Source of the DNA: Bacteroidota bacterium
GTDB lineage: Bacteria > Bacteroidota > Ignavibacteria > Kapaibacteriales > UBA961
Reading direction: 5' to 3'
Assembly: GCA_018266765.1 (NCBI GenBank)
Contig: JAFDZU010000014.1
Location: 29,050-85,094, forward strand
Length of the DNA: 56,045 nt
Positions 4,437 through 49,785 of the stretch are shown here, piece by piece; position 1 is the stretch's first letter; each line of letters begins with the position of its first letter. The position numbers were made by a program, and so were the translations under genes. The notes under the pieces are model-generated. The model did not search any database. It was not told the origin of the DNA and saw nothing but the letters and a program-made list of their open reading frames with translations.

Positions 4437-4492
4437 TTTTCCACAAGGTTTTCCACGTATTTATTATGGTTTTCCACACAAACTGTGGAAAA
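4437..4492. promoter_or_regulatory. DnaA-box-like cluster between dnaB and marR
   Basis: Four near-consensus boxes lie within 56 bp: TTTTCCACA at 4437-4445, TTTTCCACG at 4449-4457, TTTTCCACA at 4470-4478 and its reverse complement TGTGGAAAA at 4484-4492. Each differs from TTATCCACA by one or two bases. The last two form an inverted pair. The site could regulate dnaB through DnaA, or be part of a dispersed origin region. Confidence 0.6.
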
Positions 4493-15264: not shown

Positions 15265-18200
15265 TTAGCGAATAACCGTAAGACCTGCATTTGTTGTTAC
15301 ATCACCTGCCACCATTTTCACAGTATATTGACCACTTGGTAATGTACTTGATGTAAATGGAACAGAATAAGTATCTGCATTTTTGTACTCTTGAACCAAC
15401 ATAGCTACTTCTATGCCAAGCATATTATAGACTTTAACGGTTACAAATCCATTTTGAGGAACAATATATTGAACTGTTGTATTACCGCTTGTAGGATTAG
15501 GAACTGTTTGTAACATTGAACCGGTAAGCGGAGTATCAGATTTGAGTAATTTAACAGCTTCAACATTTTTATTAGTAATAATAACTGTTGAATTTGTTTG
15601 ATTAATCGTACCTAATGATTTTCCGGTTACAATATCAATAACTTGATAAGACTCTTTCGGGCAATCAATTGAAATTGCAAGAGGATATTCTACACCTTGG
15701 AATCTAACAGTTGGGCTTGTTACATTTTCTGCATTTGCATTATTTGTAAATCTTGTATCAAACATTCCAAATGGAGGCACCGGAGGAAGTTCAAATGCAG
15801 TAACATCATTAACTTTTGACATATACAACTCGTTAGAATGCTGAGCATTATCACTTATTTTGAGCTTAGTACTATTATTGATAATCTCTTGTTTTTCATT
15901 ATCAATATCATCTGAATATTTAATACCTGTTGGAGCAGTCAATTTCAAATACCCATCATCAGTAACTTTTATCCAATATCCGAGACCCGGAACTATTTCA
16001 GAAGTTTCAAAATATCCACGATCTGTACGATATCCCCAAACACTCTTAATTGGCTTATTAGGAATTGAAGTATTATATGGATCAAAATCAATATCTTTTA
16101 CATTTACCGGAACACTTAAGCCACCGATTGTATTCCATCCCGGTGTTAAGCGTACAGGATTCATTGTACTATTAATTCTGTTAATCTTTGTACCTGCAAT
16201 CTTTGAATCTAAATACTGACCATATTTGATGAAGTATCCAACTCCAGCTGATAATACCGTTTCATTTTGATATGATTGTTGATAGAATCTAAATGGTTGA
16301 CCTCCAACTGCATTCGGATAGATAGATGTAGCTCTTAAATCTGATGGTAACACTGGTAAAGAAAGTAAATTCCAACCTTTATTAATAACAGGGAAAGCTA
16401 CTACTTTAGGTAATGTGTATTCAATCAAAAATGATGTAATACGTGCATCACGAATTGTAAATGATCTACCAGCAGGGGTTCTTGGATCTGATGTTGCATT
16501 TCTCATATCAACACTAAATATAGAACCATTCAATGTATCTCTCAAGAATAATTGTGCTCCATCAGGGAAATCTTGTGTATCCCAACTTATCACAATTGGA
16601 TAATTTTGAGCTCCATCTGCGTTAAATCTACAGAGGAAAATAATTGATGAATCAACTGAATTATCTCGAATATCTCTTGAATCTGAGCGAGTACCGATAG
16701 TACCTTCATTTTCAATTGGAATTTCGCTAAATCCGTATGGTGCAACTTCATTTCCACCAGCATCAACTACTTTTGGATTGAACCAACGTGCATAATACCC
16801 AGTTGGCGGTACTCTATAGTAATCTTCACCAAATAAGCTATCTACACCATCTGTTGCTCTGTGTCCTGAACCAAAAATTAAGTCATTTGATTCTCCACCA
16901 GTACCTTTAGAATTAGATACTGTCAGTCTAATTCCCCAATCTCTTCCTTGTCTTGGTGAGGTATATGGTTCTAAAGGATTACGTAAATAAATGAATGTTA
17001 CTTTAAGTTGTACAGGTGATATTAACGCTGAACCTGAAGTCAATGTAATATAACCAACATATACACCGGCATACTCTCCATTTTGTCTTAAAATATCTCC
17101 ATTACATATAACACGCATTGTAATTGCTTGTTGAGCTGAAGCAACATTGTTCCTTGCATCTTTCAAGTTTGGAGGAACAGGTCCATTTATACCATTATCT
17201 ATATATGTTACTTTTGCTTCTCTACTTTGTGTTGGTACAGGATTAAATCCATTTGGTAATGTTCTAAAAAACAACCAAGGAGCATTAGATTGGATTGTAA
17301 CATAGGTAAGTCTACTTCTTGCTGTACTATTTACAAGTTGGATGTCTCTAGTTCCATATCTACCTGTATTTAAACTTGAGTCAATAACAATTGGTCTCGT
17401 TAAGTTCCATGCTGAACCATCTGGTATATTTTCGTCTTGACGAACTTCATTATTTGTTCCTCCAATAACATCTCTAAATCCAATTGCAGGATTTTCACCT
17501 ACGTTTACCCAAACTAAACCTGACTTACTTGGATAATCTGGATAATCATCTGAATTAATGTTAATTCCAGCTAATCCTATTGTTGGATTTAAATCTCTTC
17601 TATATAATTTGTTACCGTAAGGATTATTTGCATCACCTTGAGAAACGTTTGGAAACGGATCGTCTTCTCCAATTTTTAACTCACCATAACGAAGTGAATC
17701 GTTTGTTATATACATAGGTGATTTCTCAGCACCACTGTAACGGGTTGGGTCTGATTGTAAAAGTTGCTTAGAAAGTGTTACTTTAAACTTGAGATAAAGT
17801 AACACTTGATATTGTCCATTTTCATCAGTTGTAGGAAGTCTTCTGTTAGATGTCCCTGTAACAAATACTCTACGTCCGTATTTTGTTTCAGCATCTGCAG
17901 CACCGGTTAAATAGATTCTATATCTATTCGGTGCAGGAATATCATTTATTACAAACTCAAAATTCTTTGCTAGAGCGGTAATATCTCCACCTAATGGATC
18001 TGTTATTTGTACACCGTTTTGCGCCATCACTCTTCCGTCATAGAACATCATGAATGAAAAGCTGTAAATCGGTTTTCCACCAAATCTTGGCTCTGTAATA
18101 GCTGAAGAGTCCCACCAAAGATTCTGCATAAAAACAGGAACTAAAATTTCCCGTTGTTTAACATCCGCAAATCCTAACCAAATACGACCATCAGAATAAA

Positions 18201-18360
18201 CCTGATTATTATATCCATTATTTGCCCCTAAAAGGGATAATTTTGGAATATCTGCTTTTTGAAGTGCTGACATTTGGGAATTTGGTATTACAAATGTAAA
18301 TACCCCCAATAGCATCATAAAAAGTATTTTACTGCGCAATTGTAAAAACTGCTTTTTCAT
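15265..18360 (-). CDS. Large T9SS-sorted secreted protein, 1031 aa
   Basis: Signal peptide at the start (KILFMMLLGVFTFVIPNSQ) and a T9SS type A sorting domain at the end (VPNPTSGNTTVQYIVPQNG through NAGLTVIR). The shared cluster module lies near the middle: GSGHRATDGVDSLFGEDYY and RVPPTGYYARW, then YPIVISWDTQDFPDG and GSIFSVDMRNA. A second partial copy, FELPPVPPFGMFDTRF, lies near residue 880. Between them is a segment with paired GWNLLSLPV / GWNTIGGLS strands and WGYRTDRGYFETSE..GLGYWIKV, a pattern often found in large secreted Bacteroidota proteins. A strong ribosome site (AAGGAG) precedes the start. No enzyme motif is visible; an adhesin or structural surface role is inferred. Confidence 0.88.
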   Translation of the reverse strand: MKKQFLQLRSKILFMMLLGVFTFVIPNSQMSALQKADIPKLSLLGANNGYNNQVYSDGRIWLGFADVKQREILVPVFMQNLWWDSSAITEPRFGGKPIYSFSFMMFYDGRVMAQNGVQITDPLGGDITALAKNFEFVINDIPAPNRYRIYLTGAADAETKYGRRVFVTGTSNRRLPTTDENGQYQVLLYLKFKVTLSKQLLQSDPTRYSGAEKSPMYITNDSLRYGELKIGEDDPFPNVSQGDANNPYGNKLYRRDLNPTIGLAGININSDDYPDYPSKSGLVWVNVGENPAIGFRDVIGGTNNEVRQDENIPDGSAWNLTRPIVIDSSLNTGRYGTRDIQLVNSTARSRLTYVTIQSNAPWLFFRTLPNGFNPVPTQSREAKVTYIDNGINGPVPPNLKDARNNVASAQQAITMRVICNGDILRQNGEYAGVYVGYITLTSGSALISPVQLKVTFIYLRNPLEPYTSPRQGRDWGIRLTVSNSKGTGGESNDLIFGSGHRATDGVDSLFGEDYYRVPPTGYYARWFNPKVVDAGGNEVAPYGFSEIPIENEGTIGTRSDSRDIRDNSVDSSIIFLCRFNADGAQNYPIVISWDTQDFPDGAQLFLRDTLNGSIFSVDMRNATSDPRTPAGRSFTIRDARITSFLIEYTLPKVVAFPVINKGWNLLSLPVLPSDLRATSIYPNAVGGQPFRFYQQSYQNETVLSAGVGYFIKYGQYLDSKIAGTKINRINSTMNPVRLTPGWNTIGGLSVPVNVKDIDFDPYNTSIPNKPIKSVWGYRTDRGYFETSEIVPGLGYWIKVTDDGYLKLTAPTGIKYSDDIDNEKQEIINNSTKLKISDNAQHSNELYMSKVNDVTAFELPPVPPFGMFDTRFTNNANAENVTSPTVRFQGVEYPLAISIDCPKESYQVIDIVTGKSLGTINQTNSTVIITNKNVEAVKLLKSDTPLTGSMLQTVPNPTSGNTTVQYIVPQNGFVTVKVYNMLGIEVAMLVQEYKNADTYSVPFTSSTLPSGQYTVKMVAGDVTTNAGLTVIR

Positions 18361-18388
18361 AACTCTCTCCTTTGAATTGTAAGAAGAT

Positions 18389-19612
18389 TTATTTAATAAA
18401 TTTAATATAATTTTTTTTATTTTCCGTTGTTGTAGTCACTTCAATAAAGTTGATTCCTTTTTTTAAAGCGAATTGTGGCATTTTTATTTTAAATGCAGGG
18501 AGTTCATCATTAAGCCATTTTAATTCATCTCCCAAATAGCTAAATATTCGTATTTTTTTTATTAAATCGTTAGATTTAATAATTAGAAAGTCATCATTTT
18601 CAACTAGTTGTACAACTTCTGATTTAGAAGTAATTTTAGATTCGTTTACTGATATAACTGTATCAGATTTAACGTTTGTAATTTCAACTTCGTCACCTAC
18701 CCAATTTTTTACACAATTACACTTATTTGTTTCAGTTATAATTGCTTTAATTTTAGTTTTAAAATTATCATCAACAGTTGACTTAATTTTAAGTATTATT
18801 GCTGGTAGATTTGTTTGATAATTTTTATTAAAATTAATTGTTGTTTTTAGTTTGTCTTCATAATTGAATACAGAATCCAATGTCACACCATTCTGAGCTG
18901 CTTTAATTGAAAGCATTTCTATACGTTTTGTTGTATCTTTTGAAAATTCAACTTTAGCAGAGTTTATTTTAGCATCAGATTTAAACAGATAGTTAACTGG
19001 TATTTCTTTTAAAGAATCATTTTTACCTAATTTAATAGAAGACTCTCCAAATTTAACTTCTAATATTCTATCATTAAAATTAGCAACTTCACCATAGATG
19101 TAATTTTCATGATCATAATCAATTACTTTTTTCGATCCAAAACTATAAAACACCGGTTCAAAATCAGTTATTCTTATCGATGCAACACCTTCACATTCTC
19201 CAATATATCTTCCACTTAAAACAACTAAAGGTAAATTTCCTTTAATAAACTTTGCATCATCCGGTAAATAAGCTGAAGCTCTAAATACTCCGGATTCTAG
19301 CAATCCAAAGTGAGTAAATCCCCCTCCGGAAACTATTTGTGATGTTAATGTACTGGCAGTTAATGCTTGTTCAATTATTACATTATCAGGGTCAAATTCA
19401 ATAATAAAATCATATCCTAATAAACTATCTTTAGCATAAATTTCGTTCGTTTGTATTTCAATTAAAATTCGTTTTTCACTTGCACAAACATCTACCTTTG
19501 TAGTTGCATTGATATTGACTTTAAGTGTGTCTTGTGAATATCCGTTCTGCATACCGCCATTAAATATAAATAATGACGGTAGCAGAAATAAGATTTTTTT
19601 AAGAAAACACAT
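18389..19612 (-). CDS. Secreted protein with cohesin-like N-terminal domain, 407 aa
   Basis: Signal peptide (KKILFLLPSLFIFNGGMQNG) then a beta-sandwich-like region with GYDFIIEFDPDNVIIEQAL and GNLPLVVLSGRYIGECEGVA, resembling cohesin-type domains, followed by a second similar section (PVNYLFKSDAKINSAKVEF). The C-terminus (KIRIFSYLGDELKWLNDELP, ending INFIEVTTTTENKKNYIKFIK minus its first residues) is a divergent T9SS-type sorting tail. It starts 7 bp after the stop of the upstream 945-aa gene and ends 28 bp before the next, so it is in the same operon. The cohesin call is tentative. Confidence 0.8.
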   Translation of the reverse strand: MCFLKKILFLLPSLFIFNGGMQNGYSQDTLKVNINATTKVDVCASEKRILIEIQTNEIYAKDSLLGYDFIIEFDPDNVIIEQALTASTLTSQIVSGGGFTHFGLLESGVFRASAYLPDDAKFIKGNLPLVVLSGRYIGECEGVASIRITDFEPVFYSFGSKKVIDYDHENYIYGEVANFNDRILEVKFGESSIKLGKNDSLKEIPVNYLFKSDAKINSAKVEFSKDTTKRIEMLSIKAAQNGVTLDSVFNYEDKLKTTINFNKNYQTNLPAIILKIKSTVDDNFKTKIKAIITETNKCNCVKNWVGDEVEITNVKSDTVISVNESKITSKSEVVQLVENDDFLIIKSNDLIKKIRIFSYLGDELKWLNDELPAFKIKMPQFALKKGINFIEVTTTTENKKNYIKFIK

Positions 19613-19619
19613 TGTAAAT

Positions 19620-22421
19620 TTATTTTACAATTGAAATCTTTTGAGTATTAACTTCGTTGTTACCAGTCACTCTAACATAATAGATTCCACTTGTTAATTC
19701 TTGACCCTTATCTGAATAACCATTCCATTCAAAATTCTTTATACCTTGTTCACAATTTCCTGCAAACAATGTCTTTACACTATTACCGATAACATCTACA
19801 ATATCAATTGTGTAATTCTCTGAGTTAGGTATTCTAATTTTAATGGTGGTCGAATTAGTAAATGGGTTAGGATAATTTGAAATATTTTGTCCAATTTCAT
19901 TATCATCTTGTGCCAATACTAATTTTTGTGCATTTACTTGTCTTTCATTAAACTCTATATTTGTAGTTTGTAGTTCTTTTTTTGTTGATTCAAATGTTAT
20001 ATATGCAATTGGTTCTTTCTCATTAAATTCACCATCTGCAGCAGCAACAACCTTATTTTCATTAAAATCTACATGAACAATGTTCATTTCTTTTTGAACT
20101 GGTTCTACATTAAGAACTTTTCCATCAATTGTAAATTCAACACTTAAATTATTCGTTTCACCATTAATATATAATGGTACTTTATATGTATTGCTTGATA
20201 ATTTTACGAAGTTATTGAATTGAATATTATTTGCTATTTTATTTGATATTGTAGCTTTACCATAAATTCCAAGAGTATCCCATATCCAAGGCAATGAAGG
20301 AATTCTACCAGATATATAATGTAATATATCTGAAGCATCTTGTGCATTTGCATGGTAATATATTAATCGTAATGGACCTGCATCAGGAGGTAATCCAGCT
20401 AAACTCTCAACTGAATCTCTTCTGATTCTTACCCCAAACGTATCAACATCAATACGTCTTTTCCATAATAGTGTATCTCTTAAATTATCTACAGTTCTTG
20501 AAGAATAATAATATCTACCATTATGATTAACATCTGCATGATAATTATTCCCTAATCGTAAAGTATCTCTTTTTAAACTATCAGGTAAAGATTTATCTTG
20601 AACCAACCAACGAAGAATTAATCGTGAATCGTTCACTGTTACAAATCTATTTTGTATCATATACGCATGTTTTCGTACACGTATTTGCGACAAATCTGCA
20701 TCTCCATCTCCCCATCCTGGGCTTGACGAACGTGGAATTGCTCTAAAGAATATTCGTCTTCCTTCACCATTATTTATTCCACTTGAAGGTCGCCAGTTTT
20801 GAGTGAGCTGTTCGCTTGTAAATGCTGTACTAATATTATCATACATCAATCCATTTATAAAATCGCTTTTAATTAAAAACAATCCACTTGCCGAACCTTT
20901 TAATCCTACCGAAGCATTTTTATATGATACAGTTGTTAAATTTGTAAGTGTATTTCCACCAACATCGCCATATGCAAATTCTATTCCACCCGCAAAATTA
21001 TCTGGGAATTTATCATCAACACCTTCATACAAAATTGCTTGGAAATTTCCAGTACTTGAAGGCAATGTTTGATCCATAATATTCAAGTTTTTCCATTGAA
21101 TAACTAATCTTCTTCTAGGATACGAACCCAAAACCACATACGATATTTCTGATCCTAAATATGTTCCATTTGAAGATGGAGTTGCAACTTCACCCGGCAA
21201 TCTTAAATAATGATCACCCCAAAAAGGTGCAATTACATTATTAGGATATGATGCACTATATAAGAACAAGCCATTAGCCTGATTATTAGCAATAGAGGAG
21301 AATACATCAGGATTTTGAAAAGTAGCAAATCCATTAACACATATCCAGACATTAGGTTGTTTAACTCCTTGATAATTAAAATCAAAGTTCAAAGAACTTA
21401 AATCTACTCTATAATAACCATCATTTCTATCTGTTCTAAAACCATTAACTGATGGAATAAATCTTGATTCAAACCAAGTAGGATTAATTGCAAGACTCCT
21501 TTGATAGCTTTCGAATCTAATCAAGGATGATACGGTTCCAGATGGAACCCAGCTAGAAGTTTGAGCGGTAGAAGAAGTTGATTGTGATAAATTATTGAAT
21601 GATAAACCATTAATAAACTCTCCATTTGCTCCTTTTAAACCGACAGATGCTCCATTATAATACGTAGGATCTACTGGTCCATTTCCACCAAAATTTCCAT
21701 ATGAAAAGTCAATATCTGATTGAGTGTTCAATTGTGGTTGTCCCGCGGCTACTGGTACTTGTCGTTCCCAAATTATTACTTGGAAATTAGCTAAACTTGT
21801 ATTATCAGATGGCAAACCTTTAATATTTACACTTAAATTTTTCCATTGAATAACAATTTTTCTTTTAGGAGCAACTCCATACATTTGCCATGACATTTCA
21901 GTCTCTTTCCCAACAACTGATGTTTGATATGCATGATTACCCCAATATGGAGCTATAATATTCGATGGCAATACATTTGTAAACATATCACCTGAATTAT
22001 TACCAACATAATTAGGTTGTGTGGCTGCTGTCGAAACTATTACAAACCCATTAACTGATACCCATAAATTACCAGTATTAGCCGGGTAAGTAGTTCCATT
22101 ATATTGCATTGTAAATGGCAATTGGATTGCATACATACCTGCATCTATAGCTGCTGGTGTAGTCGGAGCTGGATATATAATTCTACCTGCATCAGTATTT
22201 TCTGAATAAGGTATATTATTCACTAAAATCGGACCATTACCATTATATCGACTTGCAAATGTTAGAGGATTAGTACTATAATCTCTATACAATTTTCCTT
22301 CATTTATAACTGGCGCATCAAATTCATCATAAATTCTTTGCGCTTTAACTTCTTGTGTTGATAGCAATAGCGTAAAAGAGAATGCTGCTATCAACGCTAA
22401 AAATATACGTCTACGAAACAT
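19620..22421 (-). CDS. T9SS-sorted secreted protein with tandem duplication and dockerin-like motif
   Basis: The frame extends to a GTG at 22457, but ATG 22419-22421 has a GGGAG ribosome site and a clean signal peptide (MFRRRIFLALIAAFSFTLLL), giving 933 aa. Two tandem copies of a domain of about 200 residues occur: WVSVNGFVIV..NIIAPYWGNHA..KIVIQWKNL..FSYGNFGGN..NGASVGLKG, and WICVNGFATF..NVIAPFWGDHY..RLVIQWKNL..FAYGDVGGN..KNASVGLKG. Next comes a segment with the Ca-loop-like ADVNHNGRYY, resembling a dockerin repeat, then a possible cohesin-like strand set. The end is a T9SS type A tail (YPNPFTNSTTIKIRIP, ending NTQKISIVK). A surface structural role is inferred. Confidence 0.87.
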   Translation of the reverse strand: MFRRRIFLALIAAFSFTLLLSTQEVKAQRIYDEFDAPVINEGKLYRDYSTNPLTFASRYNGNGPILVNNIPYSENTDAGRIIYPAPTTPAAIDAGMYAIQLPFTMQYNGTTYPANTGNLWVSVNGFVIVSTAATQPNYVGNNSGDMFTNVLPSNIIAPYWGNHAYQTSVVGKETEMSWQMYGVAPKRKIVIQWKNLSVNIKGLPSDNTSLANFQVIIWERQVPVAAGQPQLNTQSDIDFSYGNFGGNGPVDPTYYNGASVGLKGANGEFINGLSFNNLSQSTSSTAQTSSWVPSGTVSSLIRFESYQRSLAINPTWFESRFIPSVNGFRTDRNDGYYRVDLSSLNFDFNYQGVKQPNVWICVNGFATFQNPDVFSSIANNQANGLFLYSASYPNNVIAPFWGDHYLRLPGEVATPSSNGTYLGSEISYVVLGSYPRRRLVIQWKNLNIMDQTLPSSTGNFQAILYEGVDDKFPDNFAGGIEFAYGDVGGNTLTNLTTVSYKNASVGLKGSASGLFLIKSDFINGLMYDNISTAFTSEQLTQNWRPSSGINNGEGRRIFFRAIPRSSSPGWGDGDADLSQIRVRKHAYMIQNRFVTVNDSRLILRWLVQDKSLPDSLKRDTLRLGNNYHADVNHNGRYYYSSRTVDNLRDTLLWKRRIDVDTFGVRIRRDSVESLAGLPPDAGPLRLIYYHANAQDASDILHYISGRIPSLPWIWDTLGIYGKATISNKIANNIQFNNFVKLSSNTYKVPLYINGETNNLSVEFTIDGKVLNVEPVQKEMNIVHVDFNENKVVAAADGEFNEKEPIAYITFESTKKELQTTNIEFNERQVNAQKLVLAQDDNEIGQNISNYPNPFTNSTTIKIRIPNSENYTIDIVDVIGNSVKTLFAGNCEQGIKNFEWNGYSDKGQELTSGIYYVRVTGNNEVNTQKISIVK

Positions 22422-22477
22422 AAAGACTCCCAATATTTTTTTAAATAAATTTTTCACGTTGTTAATTGTGATGAACA

Positions 22478-22502
22478 GTGGCTCTTTGCATTAAAGAGCC
22501 AC
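22478..22502 (-). terminator. Hairpin after the 2500-aa gene
   Basis: GTGGCTCTTT (22478-22487) pairs perfectly with AAAGAGCCAC (22493-22502) around a 5-nt loop, just past the stop codon of the giant gene. There is no T run on the minus strand after it, so it may act as an attenuator or an mRNA stabiliser. Confidence 0.5.
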
Positions 22503-22516
22503 TTTCATTCAATAGT

Positions 22517-25500
22517 TTATCTAACAAGCATCATTCTTTGAGCTGTGCTAAATGCACCTGATGTCATTTTTACAAAATATACACCAGTTGACATATTTAA
22601 CCCGGAATCATTTTTAGAATCCCAATTAATTTCTGCTTTTCCTGCATTATAATAACCATCTATTAAGGTCTTAACTTTATTACCCATTGCATCATAAACT
22701 TCTACTTTAACTTTTGAAGCAGTAGGAATATTTATGGTAATATTTGTCAATCCGGATGATGGATTTGGAGTACATTCACTTAATTCATAAGTTGTTGGCA
22801 TTCCTGTTTCAGGAGTATCAACACCACTAATAAAGTCATATACAATTATAAATCCATCAATATCATCTTTATTCACAGAAATCGTCGAAACACTACCTTG
22901 AGATGCATAATCTACAATTGTGGAAGAATGACCACCTACTCCGGTTTTCATATTATATCCAAAGAAATTACCATTAGATATATTATCTCTTATCCACCAC
23001 GATGCACCGCTTGGATTCTTTTTATTATCTGTTTTTGCAGGAACATCATCTCTATTCCAAGAGATCGTTACAGGATATGCTGCTGAAAGATTTCCAGTAA
23101 TATTTCCTGCTTGGAATCTAGCTTTGTAAGTAGCCGTATTAGCATCTTTAGGAACTGCTTGCGGGAATATATTTCTAATAATTCCATTTCTTAGCGCAAT
23201 CGTCCATCTTGCATCAAATACATCTCTTGGTGGAATTGGAGGTAATTCAAATTCACAATAATTAGAATCTAATCTACCTAACTCATCAGCTTTTTCACCA
23301 GTTGTCGCATTTTTTGCTGTTCCGAAATAAAGTACCTGGAATGCTCCTAAAGTTGTATTATTCGAAACTGTAACCGGAACTATAAAATCTGTCGGGTCAG
23401 ATATATTTAATTTATATTCCAAAACTCTTGTTACTTCACCATCGGTAATTTGTACTTTAATAGTCATTTTACCATCTTGAACTGCGTTAGCAGGGTATGT
23501 AAATGGACCATTAGAACGAATAATCACTTTATGTGTAGTATCAGTTTTTGTACCTCTTATCGTAGCTGGTTCAATAACTAAATTTGTACCTGATGGAGAA
23601 ATTATTGTTAAAGTAACTTCTTCTATAATTGGATCAAAATTAGACGTTGTATCCCACCAAGGTTTTTCTCTTAATAAATCTAAGTCTTGTGCAAACAAAG
23701 TATCAACATAAACATCTCCATCACCTATACATCTTACTATCGGTGCTGTTAGAAGTTTAGGAGCATGATTCAATGAATCAACTTCTAAAATTAATGTTTT
23801 TACATCTGTTAATCCACCAGCATCTGTTAACAGAACCGTCACTGTATCAGGATTACCTAACGCGCGTGAACGTGGAGCATCTTTAATACCAGGTGTTCCG
23901 TACAACAGTCCACTAATTGGATTGATTTTTAACCATTGTGGAGTCTTTTTAACTCTTCTAACATCCCAGAAACCTGCTTCTTTAAAGCACGGATCTTTTG
24001 CTATAAGCGTATCTGGATCAGTAGAATATAACAATCTAAAGGTTTGAGCTTGTCCAAAGTTTGGATCGAAATATGCGATTTTTCTAGGTCTGTTTAATAA
24101 ATCAACATTATAATCTGTTCCTTCTTTAGCTTTATTCAAATCCGTTGTTAAAATCTGAGGCGACACATTTACAAACACTCTTTTTGTTAAATAACTTATT
24201 CCACCATGACCATCGTTAACTACTAATGTAATTAATGTATCTGTGTTCAATCCACCATTAGCTTGGTCTGCAGGACTACCCGGCTTTAATAAGTTCAAAG
24301 CTTCAGCTCTTGGTATTCTTACATTAGCAACACCACGTCCAGTAAAATCAGATCCGAATTTATCCGGATATGCAAACACATGGTCAACAAGGTATACTGA
24401 TGTGTCCTTTACATATTCATTTTTAATTTTATCTAAAATTACATTCCCGTTATTGTCTAATTTATTATAGATATCTATTATAGTATCTCGTTTTATAACT
24501 TTAGATCCCGCATAATTTTTGATAAGATTTACATCTGTTACTATGCTATCAGTTTGGAATATATTAACATCTAAAGTATCTTTAAATCCATTTACGAGAA
24601 TTCTTACTTTAGTTGCATACATAGTATCTGTTCTACTTTCAATTGTAATATTAGCTTTATCTCCTAACAATACACTTTCTCTAAACATATATTGATCCAT
24701 CAACCAATTTGGTCTGATTTGATATAATTGATCAATTGCAGTATCACCGGGAGTTGTTCTCATTGACTTTGAAAGGAATGCATATGATGTTTTTCCATAT
24801 CTAAAATCCCAATTTTCGCGATTTGCGGCTACAGAATCTTCTTTTTCATCATCTGTATTAAAGTCAGCATAGAACCTTAATTTATCAGTAACACTTGCTA
24901 CTAATAATTGCTGAGTTCCTAATCTACAATTTGCACTTGGACGCTCAACTCTTGCAAACACTGGCAAACTATCCATTACAAACACCATAAATCTATAAAC
25001 TGATGAATCTGTAGATCCAAAGTTTAATGTATCTTGATTTAAATATCTTGCATTTATCGGTAGATTCAATGCTGTATCTGAATCATATTTTTGAGCATGG
25101 AAATATGACGGATATAAATATATGAATTTCGATAAAGTATCTGTTATAAATGCTTGAGATGGATAAGAACTATCAATCCGTTTTCCGGCTGAATCTGTAG
25201 CCAACCTTAATAAGATGTTCTTTAATGCATCAACATATCTTCCATTAGAAGAATAGTTTTTAACAACAACTTCCATCCACTCTCCTCCTGGCACTACATA
25301 TGGATTCGAAGGTTTACCTTTAAGTTCTACTACTCCTCTGCCACCATAATACGCTGGATTTAATGTTCTTGGGCTAGTTGCTTTATTTGGATTCGTTGTT
25401 GGCCAAATTGTATCTGCTTTAATCCAACGTCGTAACGCAGTTAATTTATTAGCAAATACATCTCTAATAGTATCACCATACTGACCAACATAGAGAGGGA

Positions 25501-28500
25501 ACCAAGATATTTCTAATTGGTTGTATCTTTTATAAGTTGTATCACCATCTTTTATTTGTCCATTGGCATTAATATCTAATGCCCAACGAGGGTCATACAT
25601 AAAATTTGAATCTATCGCTGAAATTACAAATATAGAGTCGCGACCTTTTTTGTTTGGATCTGGGGTTCTGTTGTAATTTTCATCTTCTTCTACAAAAATC
25701 TTATTCTTATAAGAACTGAAATATATTGGACTTACTTTGGGATTTTCAACAGCTATTTTATTACCAGTCAATATTGGTGGTGGATTCGAAGTACTTATTC
25801 TAAATCCTAAACCTTTATCTATAGCTGTGTCAACACCTTCTCTCCAAAGCACAGTTCTTGATATAACTCTTACAAAGTCACCTGGACGAACCGGTAAAGT
25901 ATTCCAACGCTCACCTGCAAAACTTGTAACTATTGTATCTGTACCATTTGCTAAAGATGCAGGCATACTAGGACGATTTGAATATACTACCTTTTGACCA
26001 TTTGCATAGAGAATACCACGTTTATTAAGTGCAGAAGATAAACTCATATCATATTTTCTACCACCTAATGCTGATATATCTTCATTAAATGCTGTATCTG
26101 CTAATCTCGGCAATAATGTTTCAGTTCCACCAAAATTGTAAAGACCTTCATAAGTTCTACGAACACGAGCACTTGTTCCTGTTCTATCTGCAGAATCTGG
26201 AACAAAATCTACTCTTCCACGAAGTATTTCTTTAGGATAAACACCATCATTATTTAATGTTTGTGCATCTGTAAATTGACTCATGTTAACTCTTATATAG
26301 TCTCCAGTTGAGTCGTTAATTACAAAGAACACAGAACTGTTTAATGTAGTCGGATCATCATTATTAAAATTAATATCTTCACCTTGATATTTCGCTCTTG
26401 CTTCTAAGAACAATGGGTAACCAATTGGATGACTGAGTTCATTAGTTCTATAATCAGGAGCAAACTCAGTTTGAAGTCTTCTTAATTGTCTCCACAGTAC
26501 ATTTTCTTTATTCGTTGCATAATTCAACGAATCTGTATCAAACGGATTTCTCGTTAATCTACGTACATATTTATTAAATGAAGATTTTGTAGAGTTACTA
26601 TATCTTTGAAGTTTTGGAGGAATTCCAACTGAGAAGTCTTCAATCGGTGACATTCTTCTAGCAGAATAATCTGCAGTCTTCATATCTGTACCTTTATCGA
26701 AGAAATCGTAAATACGACCTTCCATCAAAAGTGTATCTGGAATTTTACCAATTTGAATTGGTGTATATGTATAACCCGGGAAACCATTTTGTTCAAAAGG
26801 TCCTTGTTGAGTATCATCAGTTCTATTTGCTCTTAAGAATCTCATGTGAGTTTGTCCATTGCCTTGTATAAAGAAAGATTCTTGAATTCCTCCGTTTACA
26901 AAACCTGGCTGAGATGTTTTGATAATTGTATTAACATTACCTTGTGTTACACCCCAATAATTTCCTCTCAATGTGTCAACACCACCAAAACCTATACCTA
27001 CACCACCAGCCAACACACTTTTCGAATTTGGAGCATCGGGAAGTCTAATAATAAATCTAGCGTCATTATCGTAGATTGAATTCGCTGCAATATTAAAAGC
27101 TGTCCAAGGAATAGGCCCAATCATATCTCCATACATTGTAGCACCAGCTAAATCACTTGAAGCAGGATTGTCTGGAGTTATAAACGGACCTTTTATAACA
27201 TCCTGACTTCTACCTACAGGTGAAGTTGCTTTATTTGATGTAATCAAACATCTTGTCAATACAACTTTTAAATCATAATTATCTGAGTATATAGCTGATC
27301 CAGTATAAGCTGTATTATTTTGAATTCTTACTCTATTCATAAATATAGAGTCTGTTCTATATCTTCTTTGAAGAGTTACACTATCTAAAATAAACACCGC
27401 TCCACCAAGTCCAACTCCATTTTCTCTCAATCCATTTCCTAACACATCTCGAACAAATCCAGGGTGGAATCTTTTAATATCGATTGAGTTTGCACCCATC
27501 TGAGTTGTACCACTTCCTAATAATCTTGAATCTGGATTAGGTTCAGCAACATTATTATAAAATCTAGTTAAACTTCTTACATCTGCTGAAACTGCTGCAA
27601 TTTTTCTATTATCATACAAACTGTCATTTGAAATATAGCCAGTTGCTGTACCATTTGGAAGAATTGTAAGCTGATCTGCATCAGTTATAAAAAATCTTTT
27701 TGAAGAAGTACGAGGATGTATCATCGCTATAGCACCACCATTACTATTAAAAGCGCGATTATTGGTAAACTCAACACCTTTAACAACATTTAAATCTCCG
27801 TTCATTGAGTAAACTGCTCCACCACCTCTTACTTGTTTTAACATCTCTACACTTGTCGAAGGGGCGAATTCTCCTGTCACATTATCAATAAACTGGGTTC
27901 TTACTAATCTAATATACCGTTGCTCAATTGGCACCGGTGGCTCTATACTCGGCAAATGGATTGCTATTGCTCCACCTGAAAATCCTGACTTATTGTTCGC
28001 AAACCGAACACTAAATCCTGTACCATAAGCCTGTGCCAAAGGAAGATCATTTATAAATCCGCCTGCACCATATGAAGTCATATTTCTTTTTGTATACACT
28101 GCTCCACCATGAGCTAAAGCTGTGTTATTTTCAAAGGTGATTCTTCTACCATAATCTCTAAGTCTAGGATTAGGTATATCGGATCCGCCTATAATAGGAG
28201 AAGGACGAGGATCTGTGTTACCATCAACATACACTGCACCACCTGAACCTGCTCTATTATTTAAAAATTCTGTTGCTAGACTTGGATGTCCTCGTAATTG
28301 CAAACGTCCTAATGTATTCTCATGAAAAATAGCTCCACCCAATGCATATTGTTCACTATTGCTGTTTACTTGATATGGAGTTTCTGCATAGTTGTTTCTA
28401 AATGATCCATTAACAATCAACGATGTATACTTTCCAATATACAATGCTCCACCTTTTGCACCTCTTGAATTTGGAGAAGATTGGCGGTTTAATGCATAAT

Positions 28501-30019
28501 TATTAGAAAAATTTACAAAATCTTTAGAACCAAAATTTATAAAACCAAATGGTCCTGCAGCAACTCTTATACTATCATTTACACCTAAACCAATTTCAAT
28601 TTTTCTATTCTCGTCTAATTCTCTACCTGCAATCACCAACGCCCCACCAAACGCCTCGTTTTTCCATGATTGAGATTGCAATGCAGCCGGTCTATTCGTA
28701 TCAGTTACAACTCTATTCCCATTGATTCTTAATGTATCAATATCCGATACGATTACTCTGTTATTATCAAAATTTAACTGACGAACTCTTCCTAAATAAA
28801 TAGCAAGTCTTGCGTCATCAACTTTTTGACGACGTGAATCTGAATTTGAAACTGCCGGTTCAGCTCCTGCATTATCTAATTCACTTAATCGAATTACTGT
28901 TTGTGCTATTGTACTTCCATCTCCTTCTGTCATTGCCGGATTTTTATCCAAAAATGCATAGTTAGTTATACCTAAACCAGCTGTGTCTGGATATACACCG
29001 GTTCCAGCTGGCGCTTGTAACATTTGGAGAGCCCCACCTCTAAAACGTGCTTGATTGTTTGTAAAATTACATCCTATCAACCATGTCCGTGCCGAAAAAC
29101 TGGTAAGAGCTCCACCAGCACCATTAGTGAGTTTATTCATTTCTTGATTCAACGCAGTAAAAGCAGACTTCAACGAAGGTGCAACTGTTGCTGTATCATA
29201 GATTACCCTACCGTCAACAGTAGTATCTTTTTTAAAGTCTTTAAAATCTACATCTCTAAAAAACGCTGCTCGAGCACCTGGCAGTACAATTATATGTCCC
29301 CACTCACGAGAATAATCATTTATCGGTTGACCTCTAAAAACTATCTTTTTTGATGCAGCACTTACTGGAATATTCGGTGTAACACCGAATAATCTTCTCC
29401 ATTGTTGAAAACGGATTATATCATCTGTCAACCACAATCTCGATGCAGTGTACATAATCGCTCTCATTGGCGAAATTACTACTTTGTTACTTCCGGGCCC
29501 AGGTAAACTAGCTCCGCTTGTAAGGTTCTCAATTTTCTTCGTTATAGTATCTAATACAACATTGAATATATAGTTGTATTTACCATAACCACTTGGGTTG
29601 GCAAAGTTACCTGGATATGTCAACGCACCCTGTATCGTAGGCTCATTAAAATTTGTTTCTTGAACCACCGCTGAATTAAGAAAATATCTTGGATCACTAT
29701 ACTCTAGCAACCCAATAGAACTTGGAGGTGTACCGTTATATGCAGCACTCAATCTACTGTCTGCAATAATACGTCCACCTACTGAATCAATCATTCTGCC
29801 GTTATCTAAAAAGACAACCTCTGTACCGGGCTCTATAATCAATGTACCGGCGATTGTGTACGTACCATTTACCTGATACACACTATCTTGAAGAAATATT
29901 CGCACCTCATTTGGAGCAATACGTCCCGCCACCTGCACACGAGGTTTTTGCGCAAAACCCACAGACACAGCTAGGGTTAACGCAATCAAAAGAGTGCTTA
30001 AACGAAACCAACGTTGCAT
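22517..30019 (-). CDS. Giant T9SS-sorted beta-helix surface protein, 2500 aa
   Basis: Signal peptide (STLLIALTLAVSVGFAQ), then a right-handed beta-helix with polymorphic-outer-membrane-protein-like repeats from about residue 300 to 900: many F.NN.A..GGA[LVI] units (for example FTNNQARFRGGALQM, FLNNRAGSGGAVYVDG, FTNNRAFNSNGGAIAM). The middle is long and mostly unassigned. Near residue 2000 an Ig/cadherin-like segment contains INPISGLLYGTPG. The shared cluster module lies near 2230-2330 (FELPPIPPRDVFDARW, YPVTISWNRDDVP, GNFFGYNMKTG). It ends in a T9SS type A domain (CTPNPSSGLTNITINIP, last residues RMMLVR). A strong ribosome site (GGAGG) precedes ATG 30019. Likely an adhesin or cell-surface structural protein. 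Confidence 0.9.
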   Translation of the reverse strand: MQRWFRLSTLLIALTLAVSVGFAQKPRVQVAGRIAPNEVRIFLQDSVYQVNGTYTIAGTLIIEPGTEVVFLDNGRMIDSVGGRIIADSRLSAAYNGTPPSSIGLLEYSDPRYFLNSAVVQETNFNEPTIQGALTYPGNFANPSGYGKYNYIFNVVLDTITKKIENLTSGASLPGPGSNKVVISPMRAIMYTASRLWLTDDIIRFQQWRRLFGVTPNIPVSAASKKIVFRGQPINDYSREWGHIIVLPGARAAFFRDVDFKDFKKDTTVDGRVIYDTATVAPSLKSAFTALNQEMNKLTNGAGGALTSFSARTWLIGCNFTNNQARFRGGALQMLQAPAGTGVYPDTAGLGITNYAFLDKNPAMTEGDGSTIAQTVIRLSELDNAGAEPAVSNSDSRRQKVDDARLAIYLGRVRQLNFDNNRVIVSDIDTLRINGNRVVTDTNRPAALQSQSWKNEAFGGALVIAGRELDENRKIEIGLGVNDSIRVAAGPFGFINFGSKDFVNFSNNYALNRQSSPNSRGAKGGALYIGKYTSLIVNGSFRNNYAETPYQVNSNSEQYALGGAIFHENTLGRLQLRGHPSLATEFLNNRAGSGGAVYVDGNTDPRPSPIIGGSDIPNPRLRDYGRRITFENNTALAHGGAVYTKRNMTSYGAGGFINDLPLAQAYGTGFSVRFANNKSGFSGGAIAIHLPSIEPPVPIEQRYIRLVRTQFIDNVTGEFAPSTSVEMLKQVRGGGAVYSMNGDLNVVKGVEFTNNRAFNSNGGAIAMIHPRTSSKRFFITDADQLTILPNGTATGYISNDSLYDNRKIAAVSADVRSLTRFYNNVAEPNPDSRLLGSGTTQMGANSIDIKRFHPGFVRDVLGNGLRENGVGLGGAVFILDSVTLQRRYRTDSIFMNRVRIQNNTAYTGSAIYSDNYDLKVVLTRCLITSNKATSPVGRSQDVIKGPFITPDNPASSDLAGATMYGDMIGPIPWTAFNIAANSIYDNDARFIIRLPDAPNSKSVLAGGVGIGFGGVDTLRGNYWGVTQGNVNTIIKTSQPGFVNGGIQESFFIQGNGQTHMRFLRANRTDDTQQGPFEQNGFPGYTYTPIQIGKIPDTLLMEGRIYDFFDKGTDMKTADYSARRMSPIEDFSVGIPPKLQRYSNSTKSSFNKYVRRLTRNPFDTDSLNYATNKENVLWRQLRRLQTEFAPDYRTNELSHPIGYPLFLEARAKYQGEDINFNNDDPTTLNSSVFFVINDSTGDYIRVNMSQFTDAQTLNNDGVYPKEILRGRVDFVPDSADRTGTSARVRRTYEGLYNFGGTETLLPRLADTAFNEDISALGGRKYDMSLSSALNKRGILYANGQKVVYSNRPSMPASLANGTDTIVTSFAGERWNTLPVRPGDFVRVISRTVLWREGVDTAIDKGLGFRISTSNPPPILTGNKIAVENPKVSPIYFSSYKNKIFVEEDENYNRTPDPNKKGRDSIFVISAIDSNFMYDPRWALDINANGQIKDGDTTYKRYNQLEISWFPLYVGQYGDTIRDVFANKLTALRRWIKADTIWPTTNPNKATSPRTLNPAYYGGRGVVELKGKPSNPYVVPGGEWMEVVVKNYSSNGRYVDALKNILLRLATDSAGKRIDSSYPSQAFITDTLSKFIYLYPSYFHAQKYDSDTALNLPINARYLNQDTLNFGSTDSSVYRFMVFVMDSLPVFARVERPSANCRLGTQQLLVASVTDKLRFYADFNTDDEKEDSVAANRENWDFRYGKTSYAFLSKSMRTTPGDTAIDQLYQIRPNWLMDQYMFRESVLLGDKANITIESRTDTMYATKVRILVNGFKDTLDVNIFQTDSIVTDVNLIKNYAGSKVIKRDTIIDIYNKLDNNGNVILDKIKNEYVKDTSVYLVDHVFAYPDKFGSDFTGRGVANVRIPRAEALNLLKPGSPADQANGGLNTDTLITLVVNDGHGGISYLTKRVFVNVSPQILTTDLNKAKEGTDYNVDLLNRPRKIAYFDPNFGQAQTFRLLYSTDPDTLIAKDPCFKEAGFWDVRRVKKTPQWLKINPISGLLYGTPGIKDAPRSRALGNPDTVTVLLTDAGGLTDVKTLILEVDSLNHAPKLLTAPIVRCIGDGDVYVDTLFAQDLDLLREKPWWDTTSNFDPIIEEVTLTIISPSGTNLVIEPATIRGTKTDTTHKVIIRSNGPFTYPANAVQDGKMTIKVQITDGEVTRVLEYKLNISDPTDFIVPVTVSNNTTLGAFQVLYFGTAKNATTGEKADELGRLDSNYCEFELPPIPPRDVFDARWTIALRNGIIRNIFPQAVPKDANTATYKARFQAGNITGNLSAAYPVTISWNRDDVPAKTDNKKNPSGASWWIRDNISNGNFFGYNMKTGVGGHSSTIVDYASQGSVSTISVNKDDIDGFIIVYDFISGVDTPETGMPTTYELSECTPNPSSGLTNITINIPTASKVKVEVYDAMGNKVKTLIDGYYNAGKAEINWDSKNDSGLNMSTGVYFVKMTSGAFSTAQRMMLVR

Positions 30020-39747: not shown

Positions 39748-41112
39748 ATGAATTCTCAAACTACAATTTGTGCTCAAGCCACTCCACCCGGCATTTCCGG
39801 TTTAGCTGTAATACGTTTATCTGGCAAAGATGCTTTTACTATCGCTGATAAATGTTTTAAAGGAAAAATATTATTAAAAAATGCACCTAGCCATACTATA
39901 CATTATGGTAAATTCTATGACTCTGATACACTACTTGACACAATTACAGCTTCAGTCTTCCGTGCTCCGCATTCTTACACCGGAGAAAATATTATTGAAA
40001 TCGGTTGTCATGGTGGCTATGTTGTAACAAATAATATTATCAGTACGTTAATCTACAGTGGAGCAACAATTGCCCTGCCGGGTGAATTCACCCAAAGAGC
40101 TTTTCTTAATGGAAAAATTGACCTTACCCAGGTTGAAGCTGTCGCCGATATTATCCATTCAGTTTCTAAACAAGGATCCCATATCGCGGCTCGCCAACTT
40201 CTTGGTGGATTTAAGAAACGAATAACCGCTATTCGTCAAGAACTGCTTTCTGTTTGTGCATTATTAGAATTAGAATTAGATTTTTCACACGAAGATATTG
40301 AATTTATCGATAAAAGCAATCTATTAATTTTACTTTATAATACTATTCAAACTTGCCGTGACTTATTAAACAGTTTTTCTGCTTCTTCTGTTCTAAGGGA
40401 TGGCTTCCGTGTTGGTTTAGTCGGATTTCCAAATGCCGGTAAATCAACTCTTTTTAATGCTTTACTTGATAAAAAACGATCCATAGTCAGTCCAATCGCT
40501 GGTACAACGCGTGATTACATTGAAGATTCACTTTCACTTAACGGTATTTCTATTCAATTATATGACACAGCCGGATTACGACACGATTCAACAGACACAA
40601 TTGAAATAGAAGGAATTGAGTTTACACAAAAACTTCTCGAAACAAGCAATTTAATCATTATTGTAAATGATGTTTCCGTTTCCCCTGTGTATTCTTTATC
40701 ACTTTACGAGCACCTTGTTAAGCTATACCCTGAATCTAAGTTTTGTTATGTTCAAAATAAAATTGATTGTGTCACCAATATTGATATTCACAATCTGAAT
40801 TTTAGCTCCATTTTTATCTCTGCTACACAAGATATTGGCATTAAACAGCTTAAAGATTTTATTGAAAAATCTGCTTCTGAAAATTTAGAACGAATATCAG
40901 ATGTTTTACTAAACACTAGACATTCTGTAATCTTATCTAAAATTATCTCATCACTCGAAATTTCAATTCAGAGTTTAGAAAATGGTTTTTCTAATGAGTA
41001 TGTTTCTATTGATGTTCGCAATGCAATTCACTTTCTTGGTGAAATAACCGGTGAATTTATGAATGAGGAGATACTAAACACTTTATTTTCAAGTTTTTGC
41101 ATTGGTAAATAA
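39748..41112 (+). CDS. mnmE: tRNA uridine-5-carboxymethylaminomethyl GTPase MnmE
   Basis: A 454-aa GTPase that works with MnmG to modify wobble uridine 34. The N-terminal tetrahydrofolate-binding domain starts TTICAQATPPGISGLAVIRL and includes PHSYTGENIIEIGCHGG and LPGEFTQRAFLNGKIDLTQ. The G domain has G1 GFPNAGKST (about residues 226-234), DTAG (G3) and NKID (G4). The C-terminus ends in the catalytic FCIGK motif. Complete and of normal length. The paired mnmG follows 186 bp downstream with a parS-like site between them. Confidence 0.97.
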   Translation: MNSQTTICAQATPPGISGLAVIRLSGKDAFTIADKCFKGKILLKNAPSHTIHYGKFYDSDTLLDTITASVFRAPHSYTGENIIEIGCHGGYVVTNNIISTLIYSGATIALPGEFTQRAFLNGKIDLTQVEAVADIIHSVSKQGSHIAARQLLGGFKKRITAIRQELLSVCALLELELDFSHEDIEFIDKSNLLILLYNTIQTCRDLLNSFSASSVLRDGFRVGLVGFPNAGKSTLFNALLDKKRSIVSPIAGTTRDYIEDSLSLNGISIQLYDTAGLRHDSTDTIEIEGIEFTQKLLETSNLIIIVNDVSVSPVYSLSLYEHLVKLYPESKFCYVQNKIDCVTNIDIHNLNFSSIFISATQDIGIKQLKDFIEKSASENLERISDVLLNTRHSVILSKIISSLEISIQSLENGFSNEYVSIDVRNAIHFLGEITGEFMNEEILNTLFSSFCIGK

Positions 41113-41255: not shown

Positions 41256-41271
41256 TGTTTCACGTGAAACA
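41256..41271. promoter_or_regulatory. parS-like centromere site
   Basis: TGTTTCACGTGAAACA is a perfect 16-bp palindrome and fits the parS consensus TGTTNCACGTGAAACA bound by ParB/Spo0J. It lies between mnmE and mnmG, 27 bp before the mnmG start codon. parS sites cluster near chromosomal origins. Confidence 0.88.
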
Positions 41272-47577: not shown

Positions 47578-48753
47578 ATGAAACATCAACAACAAGAATG
47601 GTTGTCTACTCCAAAATTGATTTGTGGATTAATGTCCGGAACCTCATTAGACGGTATTGATGCCGCCATAGTTGAATTTTCTGTTCAAAATGGCAAACAC
47701 ATCTTTACTATAAAATCTCATACCACAATCCCCTATTCGCCTGAATTTCGCACCGAAATCACACGTATTATCGAAAAAAAATCTACTATAGCTGATATAA
47801 GCTGGTTACATTTTGCCATATCAGAATTTCATGCAATCGCTGTACAAAAAGCGTGTGAACTTGCAGGAATAACTCCACATTTATTAGATGGTGTGGGATT
47901 TCACGGTCAAACCGTCTGGCATTCACCTACTCCCAAGAAAAAACTTGGAAATTCTATTAGCTCTACCCTCCAACTTGGCTCTCCTTCAGTACTTGCTACT
48001 ATACTTGGCATTCCGGTCGTCGGAGATTTTCGCTCTGCTGATGTTGCTGTTGGCGGACAAGGTGCGCCACTTGTCCCAATGTTTGATGCAAACTTTTTGC
48101 GCGAAGAAAACCGAAGTATCATTGCTCTCAATATAGGAGGCATTGCAAATATAACATTATTACCTGCCTTAGACCACAATGGTAGTATCAGAGCATTCGA
48201 TACCGGACCGGGTAATGTACTAATTGATGCGGCAACTCGAATGTTTTTTGGAAAGCAACTCGATTCCAACGGTGCTTTTGCGGCGGCCGGAAGAACTGTA
48301 GGAGCAATGCTTACTCAATTGAAAAACCACAGTTTTATCACAAAAGTCCCACCAAAATCAACAGGACGTGAAGATTTTAATCCTACTTGGCTTCAAAAAC
48401 GGATTCGCACTACTTTCCAACCTTCTATTCCCTCTGAAGATATTGTGCGAACTGTAACTGAATTCACTGCATGGTCAATTGCTGAAAACATCCGACTTTT
48501 TGCCGATACTTCATCAAAAATAATTGCATCGGGGGGCGGAATTCACAATAAAACACTTATATCAATGATACAAAAGGAATTACCAAACACCGAAATCATC
48601 ACAACAGATGCAATTGGCATCCCATCCGACGCAAAAGAAGCAATTTGTTTTGCGTACCTTGCCTACAGAACTCTCGGAGGATTACCGGGAAATATTCCAA
48701 CCGTTACAGGCGCATCCCGCGAGGTAAAACTGGGAGTAATAGCTTTTCCATAA
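47578..48753 (+). CDS. anmK: Anhydro-N-acetylmuramic acid kinase
   Basis: A 391-aa kinase of peptidoglycan recycling that opens and phosphorylates 1,6-anhydroMurNAc. Signature segments are CGLMSGTSLDGIDAA at the start, GFHGQTVWHSP, VVGDFRSADVAVGGQGAPLV, ALNIGGIANITLLP, and FDTGPGNVLIDAA; SGGGIHNKTLI is the late ATP-side motif. Complete and of normal length. The gene ends 44 bp before the first box of a DnaA-box region. No promoter fits in the 20-bp gap to the divergent ATPase gene. Confidence 0.96.
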   Translation: MKHQQQEWLSTPKLICGLMSGTSLDGIDAAIVEFSVQNGKHIFTIKSHTTIPYSPEFRTEITRIIEKKSTIADISWLHFAISEFHAIAVQKACELAGITPHLLDGVGFHGQTVWHSPTPKKKLGNSISSTLQLGSPSVLATILGIPVVGDFRSADVAVGGQGAPLVPMFDANFLREENRSIIALNIGGIANITLLPALDHNGSIRAFDTGPGNVLIDAATRMFFGKQLDSNGAFAAAGRTVGAMLTQLKNHSFITKVPPKSTGREDFNPTWLQKRIRTTFQPSIPSEDIVRTVTEFTAWSIAENIRLFADTSSKIIASGGGIHNKTLISMIQKELPNTEIITTDAIGIPSDAKEAICFAYLAYRTLGGLPGNIPTVTGASREVKLGVIAFP

Positions 48754-49068
48754 TTTAATATCTTTATTTTATTAATAGATAAGTCAATCTTTATACTTTT
48801 CCACAAGATTGTCCACAAATCCACATTTTATGAGTGGATAGGAATGTTTTTATCGTGAATAGATATTTCTGAACGTGAATAAAAACTATTGTTTCCACAG
48901 AGCAGTTGATAACTTCAAACTTATCAACACTACTTTCCACACATAATGATAATCCTAATAAGTAAAGTAACACTTTATAAATTTACACTTTAATTATTCT
49001 TTTCCACAAGGTTTTCCACTTATCCACACACTATCTCTATTCTTACATAAAGAAAATTTTAAACATTA
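48754..49068. other. Candidate replication origin (oriC): DnaA-box-rich intergenic region
   Basis: This 315-bp gene-free, AT-rich gap between anmK and the thiamine pyrophosphokinase gene carries about ten DnaA-like boxes: TTTTCCACA (48797-48805), TTGTCCACA (48809-48817), AAATCCACA (48817-48825), AGTGGATAG (reverse, about 48833-48841), GTTTCCACA (48891-48899), AGTTGATAA (reverse) at 48904-48912 with TTATCAACA (48921-48929) as an inverted pair, CTTTCCACA (48933-48941), TTTTCCACA (49000-49008), TTTTCCACT (49012-49020) and the exact consensus TTATCCACA (49020-49028). AT-rich flanks could serve as the unwinding element. Confidence 0.68.
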
Positions 49069-49785
49069 TTAAGATATAAGAAAATTTGAGGGTATAAATA
49101 TTGGTCGTTTGGGAATGCGTGCATTGCAAAAAAGTAAAATGTTTCCTTCGTGAATTTCAATAGACACACTTTCCGATAATGCACAGTTTCGCGCTCCCTC
49201 TCTCACACCAAGTTCTAAAAACTCATTTGTTAGATTCCACTGTAAGCCGGAAGTAGTTATTTTAGCAAGAGGTTGAGGTATAAGCGATATAATTTCACCA
49301 ACATTAGAAGGGAGTTGAACAGATTTCTGTAGAGGTATTGCATATCGTTCTTTTTCATAAACACATAAATTAATCAGTTGAGAATGTCGCATGAGTACAC
49401 TCCAATTGTTTAATGTATGCTCGGCAATTCCACCGTGAAAACCACAGACTAAAACATCCGTATAACCACGTTCTTGGCAAAATATCAAACACTTTTCAAA
49501 ATCGTTAGATTCTTGGTCAGGAAGATGAATTATCATAGAATCAGGAAAATTTACATTTGTATCTGATAAATAAATAGAATCCAAGTCGCCTATGATAAAA
49601 GTCGGAGAAATGTCAAGTTGTTGTAAAGCACGTGCGGCACCGTCAGCAGCAATAATTATTATTTCTTTGAAAAAATCGAAAAAATCTTTTGTATTAGGTA
49701 AATTGCCGTTTAAACATAATAAAGCATCAAACTGAACGCTTGAATATTCAAGTAAATCAAAAGGTTGTGAGGGTAAGTCAGTCAT
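49069..49785 (-). CDS. Thiamine pyrophosphokinase
   Basis: A 238-aa enzyme that transfers pyrophosphate from ATP to thiamine. Key segments are IIAADGAARALQQLDISPTF, then IIGDLDSI (the Mg/ATP acidic motif), HLPDQESNDFEKCLIFC (the DQ..TDFEK-type motif, here with N for T) and VCGFHGGIAEHTLNNWSVLM. The C-terminal thiamine-binding strand region contains ISLIPQPLAKITTSGLQWNL. It supplies the cofactor used by the E1 dehydrogenase and the transketolase in this window. The family is usually named thiN or TPK. Confidence 0.9.
   Translation of the reverse strand: MTDLPSQPFDLLEYSSVQFDALLCLNGNLPNTKDFFDFFKEIIIIAADGAARALQQLDISPTFIIGDLDSIYLSDTNVNFPDSMIIHLPDQESNDFEKCLIFCQERGYTDVLVCGFHGGIAEHTLNNWSVLMRHSQLINLCVYEKERYAIPLQKSVQLPSNVGEIISLIPQPLAKITTSGLQWNLTNEFLELGVREGARNCALSESVSIEIHEGNILLFCNARIPKRPIFIPSNFLIS

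Follow-up and report, generated by a model that had tools for sequence, protein, structure and literature searches.

The window, i.e., the whole 56,045-nucleotide stretch of DNA that was analysed (C12:29050-85094, on one of the 106 contigs of a 3.71-Mb assembly), carries mnmE and mnmG (gidA) and, further to the right, the convergent genes anmK and thiamine diphosphokinase (thiamine pyrophosphokinase, TPK), which are separated by a gap of 315 bp. The closest named relative of the window's mnmG in the genome collection is labelled Ignavibacteriae (79% identity). Further to the left, the minus strand of 15265-30019 encodes very large predicted secreted proteins in a row (1031, 407, 945, and 2500 aa), and several of these have, as judged by eye, terminal domains resembling sorting signals of type IX secretion. 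The features on which our analysis rests are listed below, with the positions of DnaA boxes also given relative to the core.

39748..41112, plus strand: mnmE, tRNA modification GTPase, an origin-neighbourhood gene (TIGR00450 over cut-off)
41256..41271, no strand: parS-like ParB site TGTTTCACGTGAAACA in the mnmE-mnmG gap, the sole exact match in the whole genome
41299..43146, plus strand: mnmG (gidA), an origin-neighbourhood gene (TIGR00136 over cut-off)
47578..48753, plus strand: anmK, left neighbour of the gap (NF007148 over cut-off)
48754..49068, no strand: candidate oriC region, gene-free, 315 bp, 26% G+C, between convergent anmK and TPK
48797..48817, plus strand: left DnaA-box pair, TTTTCCACA (48797) and TTGTCCACA (48809), at -215/-203 from the core
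48891..48912, no strand: central inverted pair, GTTTCCACA (plus, 48891) and TTATCAACT (minus, 48904), at -121/-108 from the core
48921..48941, plus strand: boxes TTATCAACA (48921) and CTTTCCACA (48933), including the -79 box
49000..49008, plus strand: box TTTTCCACA at -12, retained in part of the family only
49012..49028, plus strand: core, DnaA boxes TTTTCCACT and TTATCCACA sharing one base, the most conserved columns of the gap
49029..49090, no strand: AT-rich flank, candidate DNA-unwinding element, ~82% A+T, low predicted duplex stability near 49043
49069..49785, minus strand: TPK, right neighbour of the gap (TIGR01378 over cut-off)

An initial annotation of this DNA had placed an oriC in the anmK-TPK gap, citing about ten DnaA-like 9-mers, one of them exact, and an inverted TTATCAAC pair within 232 bp of gene-free, AT-rich DNA. 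Our counts agree with that description: no gene lies in the gap, 48797-49028 has 12 9-mers that differ from TTATCCACA at no more than two positions (five with at most one mismatch and one exact, at 49020-49028), and the inverted pair is formed by TTATCAACT (48904, minus strand) and TTATCAACA (48921, plus strand). The interval 48797-49028 does hold the boxes, but it is better seen as part of a larger unit made up of the entire 315-bp gap, with its nine DnaA boxes of good quality, and the AT-rich flank next to TPK. The further claim that box density is far above chance was borne out by scoring against TTWTCCACA: allowing up to one mismatch, 48754-49068 has 8 sites, whereas 2000 dinucleotide shuffles of it had 0.43 on average and never more than 5; for exact matches, the observed 3 compare with a shuffle mean of 0.021 and a maximum of 2. 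By TTWTCCACA-like sites, the gap ranks first among 315-bp stretches of the window, followed by the region upstream of dnaB with 4; the locus thus has the above-chance cluster of DnaA boxes in non-coding DNA that is expected of an oriC. Since both neighbouring genes converge, no promoter is expected in the gap, and a role of its boxes in promoter control is unlikely.

We searched for anmK in 60 relatives and then scanned the neighbouring DNA for boxes. Thirteen genomes of the family, including that of the window, have the locus, and a DnaA-box cluster lies just downstream of anmK in 13/13, with an rpiB-like gene between the two in some of them. Position and boxes are therefore conserved in relatives, as expected of an oriC; a lack of such conservation, which the initial annotation had named as grounds for rejecting the locus, was not found. 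Among the family loci, the mean majority frequency in the aligned gap was 0.85 for box columns vs 0.53 elsewhere. A box at -210 to -216 from the core is kept in 13/13 loci, and column conservation of the left pair (48797/48809) is 0.89/0.82, while the -79 box (48933), at 0.91, is the best conserved box outside the core. The inverted TTATCAAC pair is present as described, but its conservation is lower than that of the other boxes. An inverted pair at ~-122/-109 is seen again in other genera and in family f4.

The core stands out from the remaining boxes. Its 17-base sequence, TTTTCCACTTATCCACA (49012-49028), is unique in the 3.71-Mb genome, and the pattern TTTTCCACNTNTCNACA likewise has a single match there, i.e., the core itself, while the reversed control has none. 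The overlapping two-box arrangement is present in 26/26 loci compared, from five families and with varied gene neighbours, which elsewhere include serS (f6) and a mnmG-proximal reductase gene (f4), both gene names being read by eye. Outer boxes also recur at similar distances: one at ~-76 to -80 from the core in families f1, f3, and most of f4, and those at ~-122 and ~-216 in f1 and f4.

Since the assembly is fragmented, we determined GC skew over individual stretches and in relatives with long contigs. In four of the relatives, the minimum of cumulative GC skew lay 0.2-1 kb from the core: G007 (21,431 vs core 21,221) and G004 (23,471 vs 23,227, on a stretch read that ends ~2 kb right of the core), both of the same family, and G034 (107,072 vs 106,545) and G026 (98,584 vs 97,552), both of other families. 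G016 is a complete genome of 2.19 Mb; over its contiguous 1-240 kb, the minimum (139,891) is 13.6 kb from the core (126,310), and in the stretches sampled the skew is positive between 0.22 and 1.43 Mb and negative from ~1.54 Mb past the sequence end to 0.11 Mb, with one stretch of approximately zero skew per side as exceptions. On the window's own contig, mean skew is -0.070 left of the core and +0.038 right of it. The raw minimum there (70,237) is at the mnmE-mnmG gap, 7.8 kb left of the core, and the fourfold-site minimum is ~3.5 kb right of it, the per-gene fourfold-site skew being noisy and placing the switch no better than to ~10 kb. The location expected of an oriC, at the skew minimum, is thus seen in relatives and to within 8 kb on the window's contig, and a minimum far away, the other finding that had been named as counting against the locus, was not encountered.

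The position of the raw minimum raises the question of whether the parS-bearing mnmE-mnmG gap is itself the origin, with the anmK-TPK boxes serving as an accessory DnaA-binding array. Besides the parS site in that gap, the raw cumulative minimum beside mnmG, in G003 and G008 as well as in the window's contig, speaks for this arrangement. However, the mnmE-mnmG gap of the window is without DnaA boxes, and in G007 and G004 the skew minimum is 0.2 kb from the core vs 6-8 kb from mnmG. Moreover, in G034 and G026, where 56 and 20 kb, respectively, separate the core from the mnmG/parS site, the skew switch stays with the core, which makes the core the better origin candidate; we therefore consider an origin at the parS gap improbable. 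The site is nevertheless part of the expected setting of an anmK-TPK origin, since parS/ParB sites are looked for in origin regions: it lies 7.5 kb from the box cluster, an identical or near-identical site flanks mnmG in relatives, and a ParB gene is present on contig C74.

The gene dnaA, which the initial annotation had said was not adjacent, indeed lies on another contig (C42). None was found on the window's contig, which extends 78 kb to the left of the core and 9.8 kb to its right, and DnaA boxes sought in the region upstream of dnaA on C42 were absent, so that the juxtaposition of dnaA and box cluster that marks a dnaA-adjacent origin is not seen here. A dnaA-anchored search would miss the proposed anmK-TPK origin, while one anchored on mnmG or parS would reach it. 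Its place is not unusual, since it belongs to the neighbourhood of mnmG (gidA), and gidA is often near origins and is used as an indicator by origin-finding programs (PMC2275245).

The boxes adjoin AT-rich DNA of low predicted duplex stability, as is expected beside the boxes of an oriC; a second stretch of similarly low stability is at 48737. A+T content beside the core is 77-85% in the window's family and 45-63% in the higher-GC families f4, f5, and f6. Applying the test used for basal unwinding systems (BUS), which asks for three or more DnaA-trio motifs no further than ~16 bp from the box pair, we found no canonical DnaA-trios next to the core, the strict motif being absent in the window; a relaxed NAN trio pattern was present in many loci but was no commoner than in shuffled sequence. 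From established DnaA biology we infer how binding, opening, and initiation could proceed. DnaA would bind the overlapping double box of the core (49012-49028) as well as the left pair, the central inverted boxes, and the box at -79. The bound protein would form an oligomer that reaches beyond the double box, from 49029 onward, into the AT-rich flank next to TPK. This oligomer would open the AT-rich DNA, presumably there, and DnaB helicase could then be loaded at the opened DNA and two forks would leave. The parS site (41256-41271) may capture ParB, by which new origins would be segregated.

Dense DnaA boxes alone are no proof of an origin, and further box clusters occur in this genome and its sisters, as would suit a DnaA-titration or DnaA-reactivation locus (datA/DARS-like) in place of an origin. 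The anmK-TPK cluster, however, coincides with the switch in strand composition in several relatives, its conserved core adjoins low-stability DNA in the window's family, and the core motif is at no other site of the genome, making this reading very improbable. Finally, AT-rich DNA does raise the background of TTWTCCACA-like words, but with 8 sites observed against a shuffle mean of 0.43 for the gap, convergent gene ends around it, and selectively conserved box columns, an explanation by chance or promoter-related boxes is scarcely credible.

The second cluster of the window (4437-4492), situated upstream of dnaB between divergent promoters, consists of three exact TTTTCCACA boxes and TTTTCCACG, with an inverted pair. 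It is conserved in the genus, and genus g2 retains just an inverted pair. We rejected it as an origin, since it occupies a divergent promoter region, has fewer boxes, lacks the core motif, and is reduced to an inverted pair in g2; it is probably regulatory, and a candidate for a DnaA-controlled dnaB promoter. Other two-box sites (on C36, C40, C59, C63, and C84) were set aside as isolated pairs or triples, some of them intragenic. Two sister species, G001 and G002, have six DnaA boxes, for the most part spaced by 21 bp, downstream of a histidine kinase gene (L143:427-584 and L144:1320-1476), possibly a titration or regulatory locus; in the window's genome, contig C9 stops just short of the counterpart, 176 bp past the neighbouring kinase gene. 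Two sites in the window's genome, L008:1501-1540 and L011:820-860, both have TTTTCCACAnagTTTTCCACA followed by a similar gtgtactactttt sequence, possibly a repeated regulatory element. In the relative G046 (L155:4705-4870), 11 DnaA-like boxes separated by a repeated spacer form a tandem array just ahead of a gene encoding 661 aa.

Taken together, the conserved boxes, the skew switch in relatives, and parS 7.5 kb away support the oriC proposed in the initial annotation, and on this sequence evidence the anmK-TPK gap is very probably the chromosomal replication origin, of the usual DnaA type. An overlapping-box core whose gene neighbours change within one order is modestly interesting and requires no new kind of system. 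It is conceivable, though we rather doubt it, that the order uses a lineage-specific core of two boxes overlapping by one base in place of a tandem-box-plus-trio module, and that this core stayed constant while the origin moved (anmK/TPK, mnmG, serS). This provides a well-supported origin for an uncultured lineage in which searches starting from dnaA fail, and with the 17-base motif the origin can be located in many of the order's draft genomes, enabling read-coverage estimates of growth rate, replichore analysis, and tests of origin relocation for these genomes.

In Escherichia coli and Yersinia pestis, oriC lies between gidA and mioC (PMC10225481). The proposed anmK-TPK origin resembles this gidA/mnmG type in having a gene-free DnaA-box cluster in the mnmG neighbourhood, away from dnaA, in DNA that is AT-rich in the window's family and close to the skew minimum. 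Unlike in E. coli and Y. pestis, the genes that flank it directly are anmK and TPK, mnmG is 5.7 kb away, and its core consists of two boxes that overlap by one base. For Melioribacter roseus (Ignavibacteria), a member of a related phylum-level group, oriC is predicted between dnaA and dnaN (PMC3534657); both have DnaA boxes at a GC-skew transition, whereas the origin of the window's lineage is not beside dnaA. The BUS of the Bacillus subtilis oriC comprises tandem DnaA boxes, a spacer, and DnaA-trios (PMC8287927). Unlike its boxes, those of the window share one base, and a run of 3'-GAT-5' trios was not detected above chance; the two nevertheless share a tandem box pair, which in the window's family is followed directly by AT-rich DNA.
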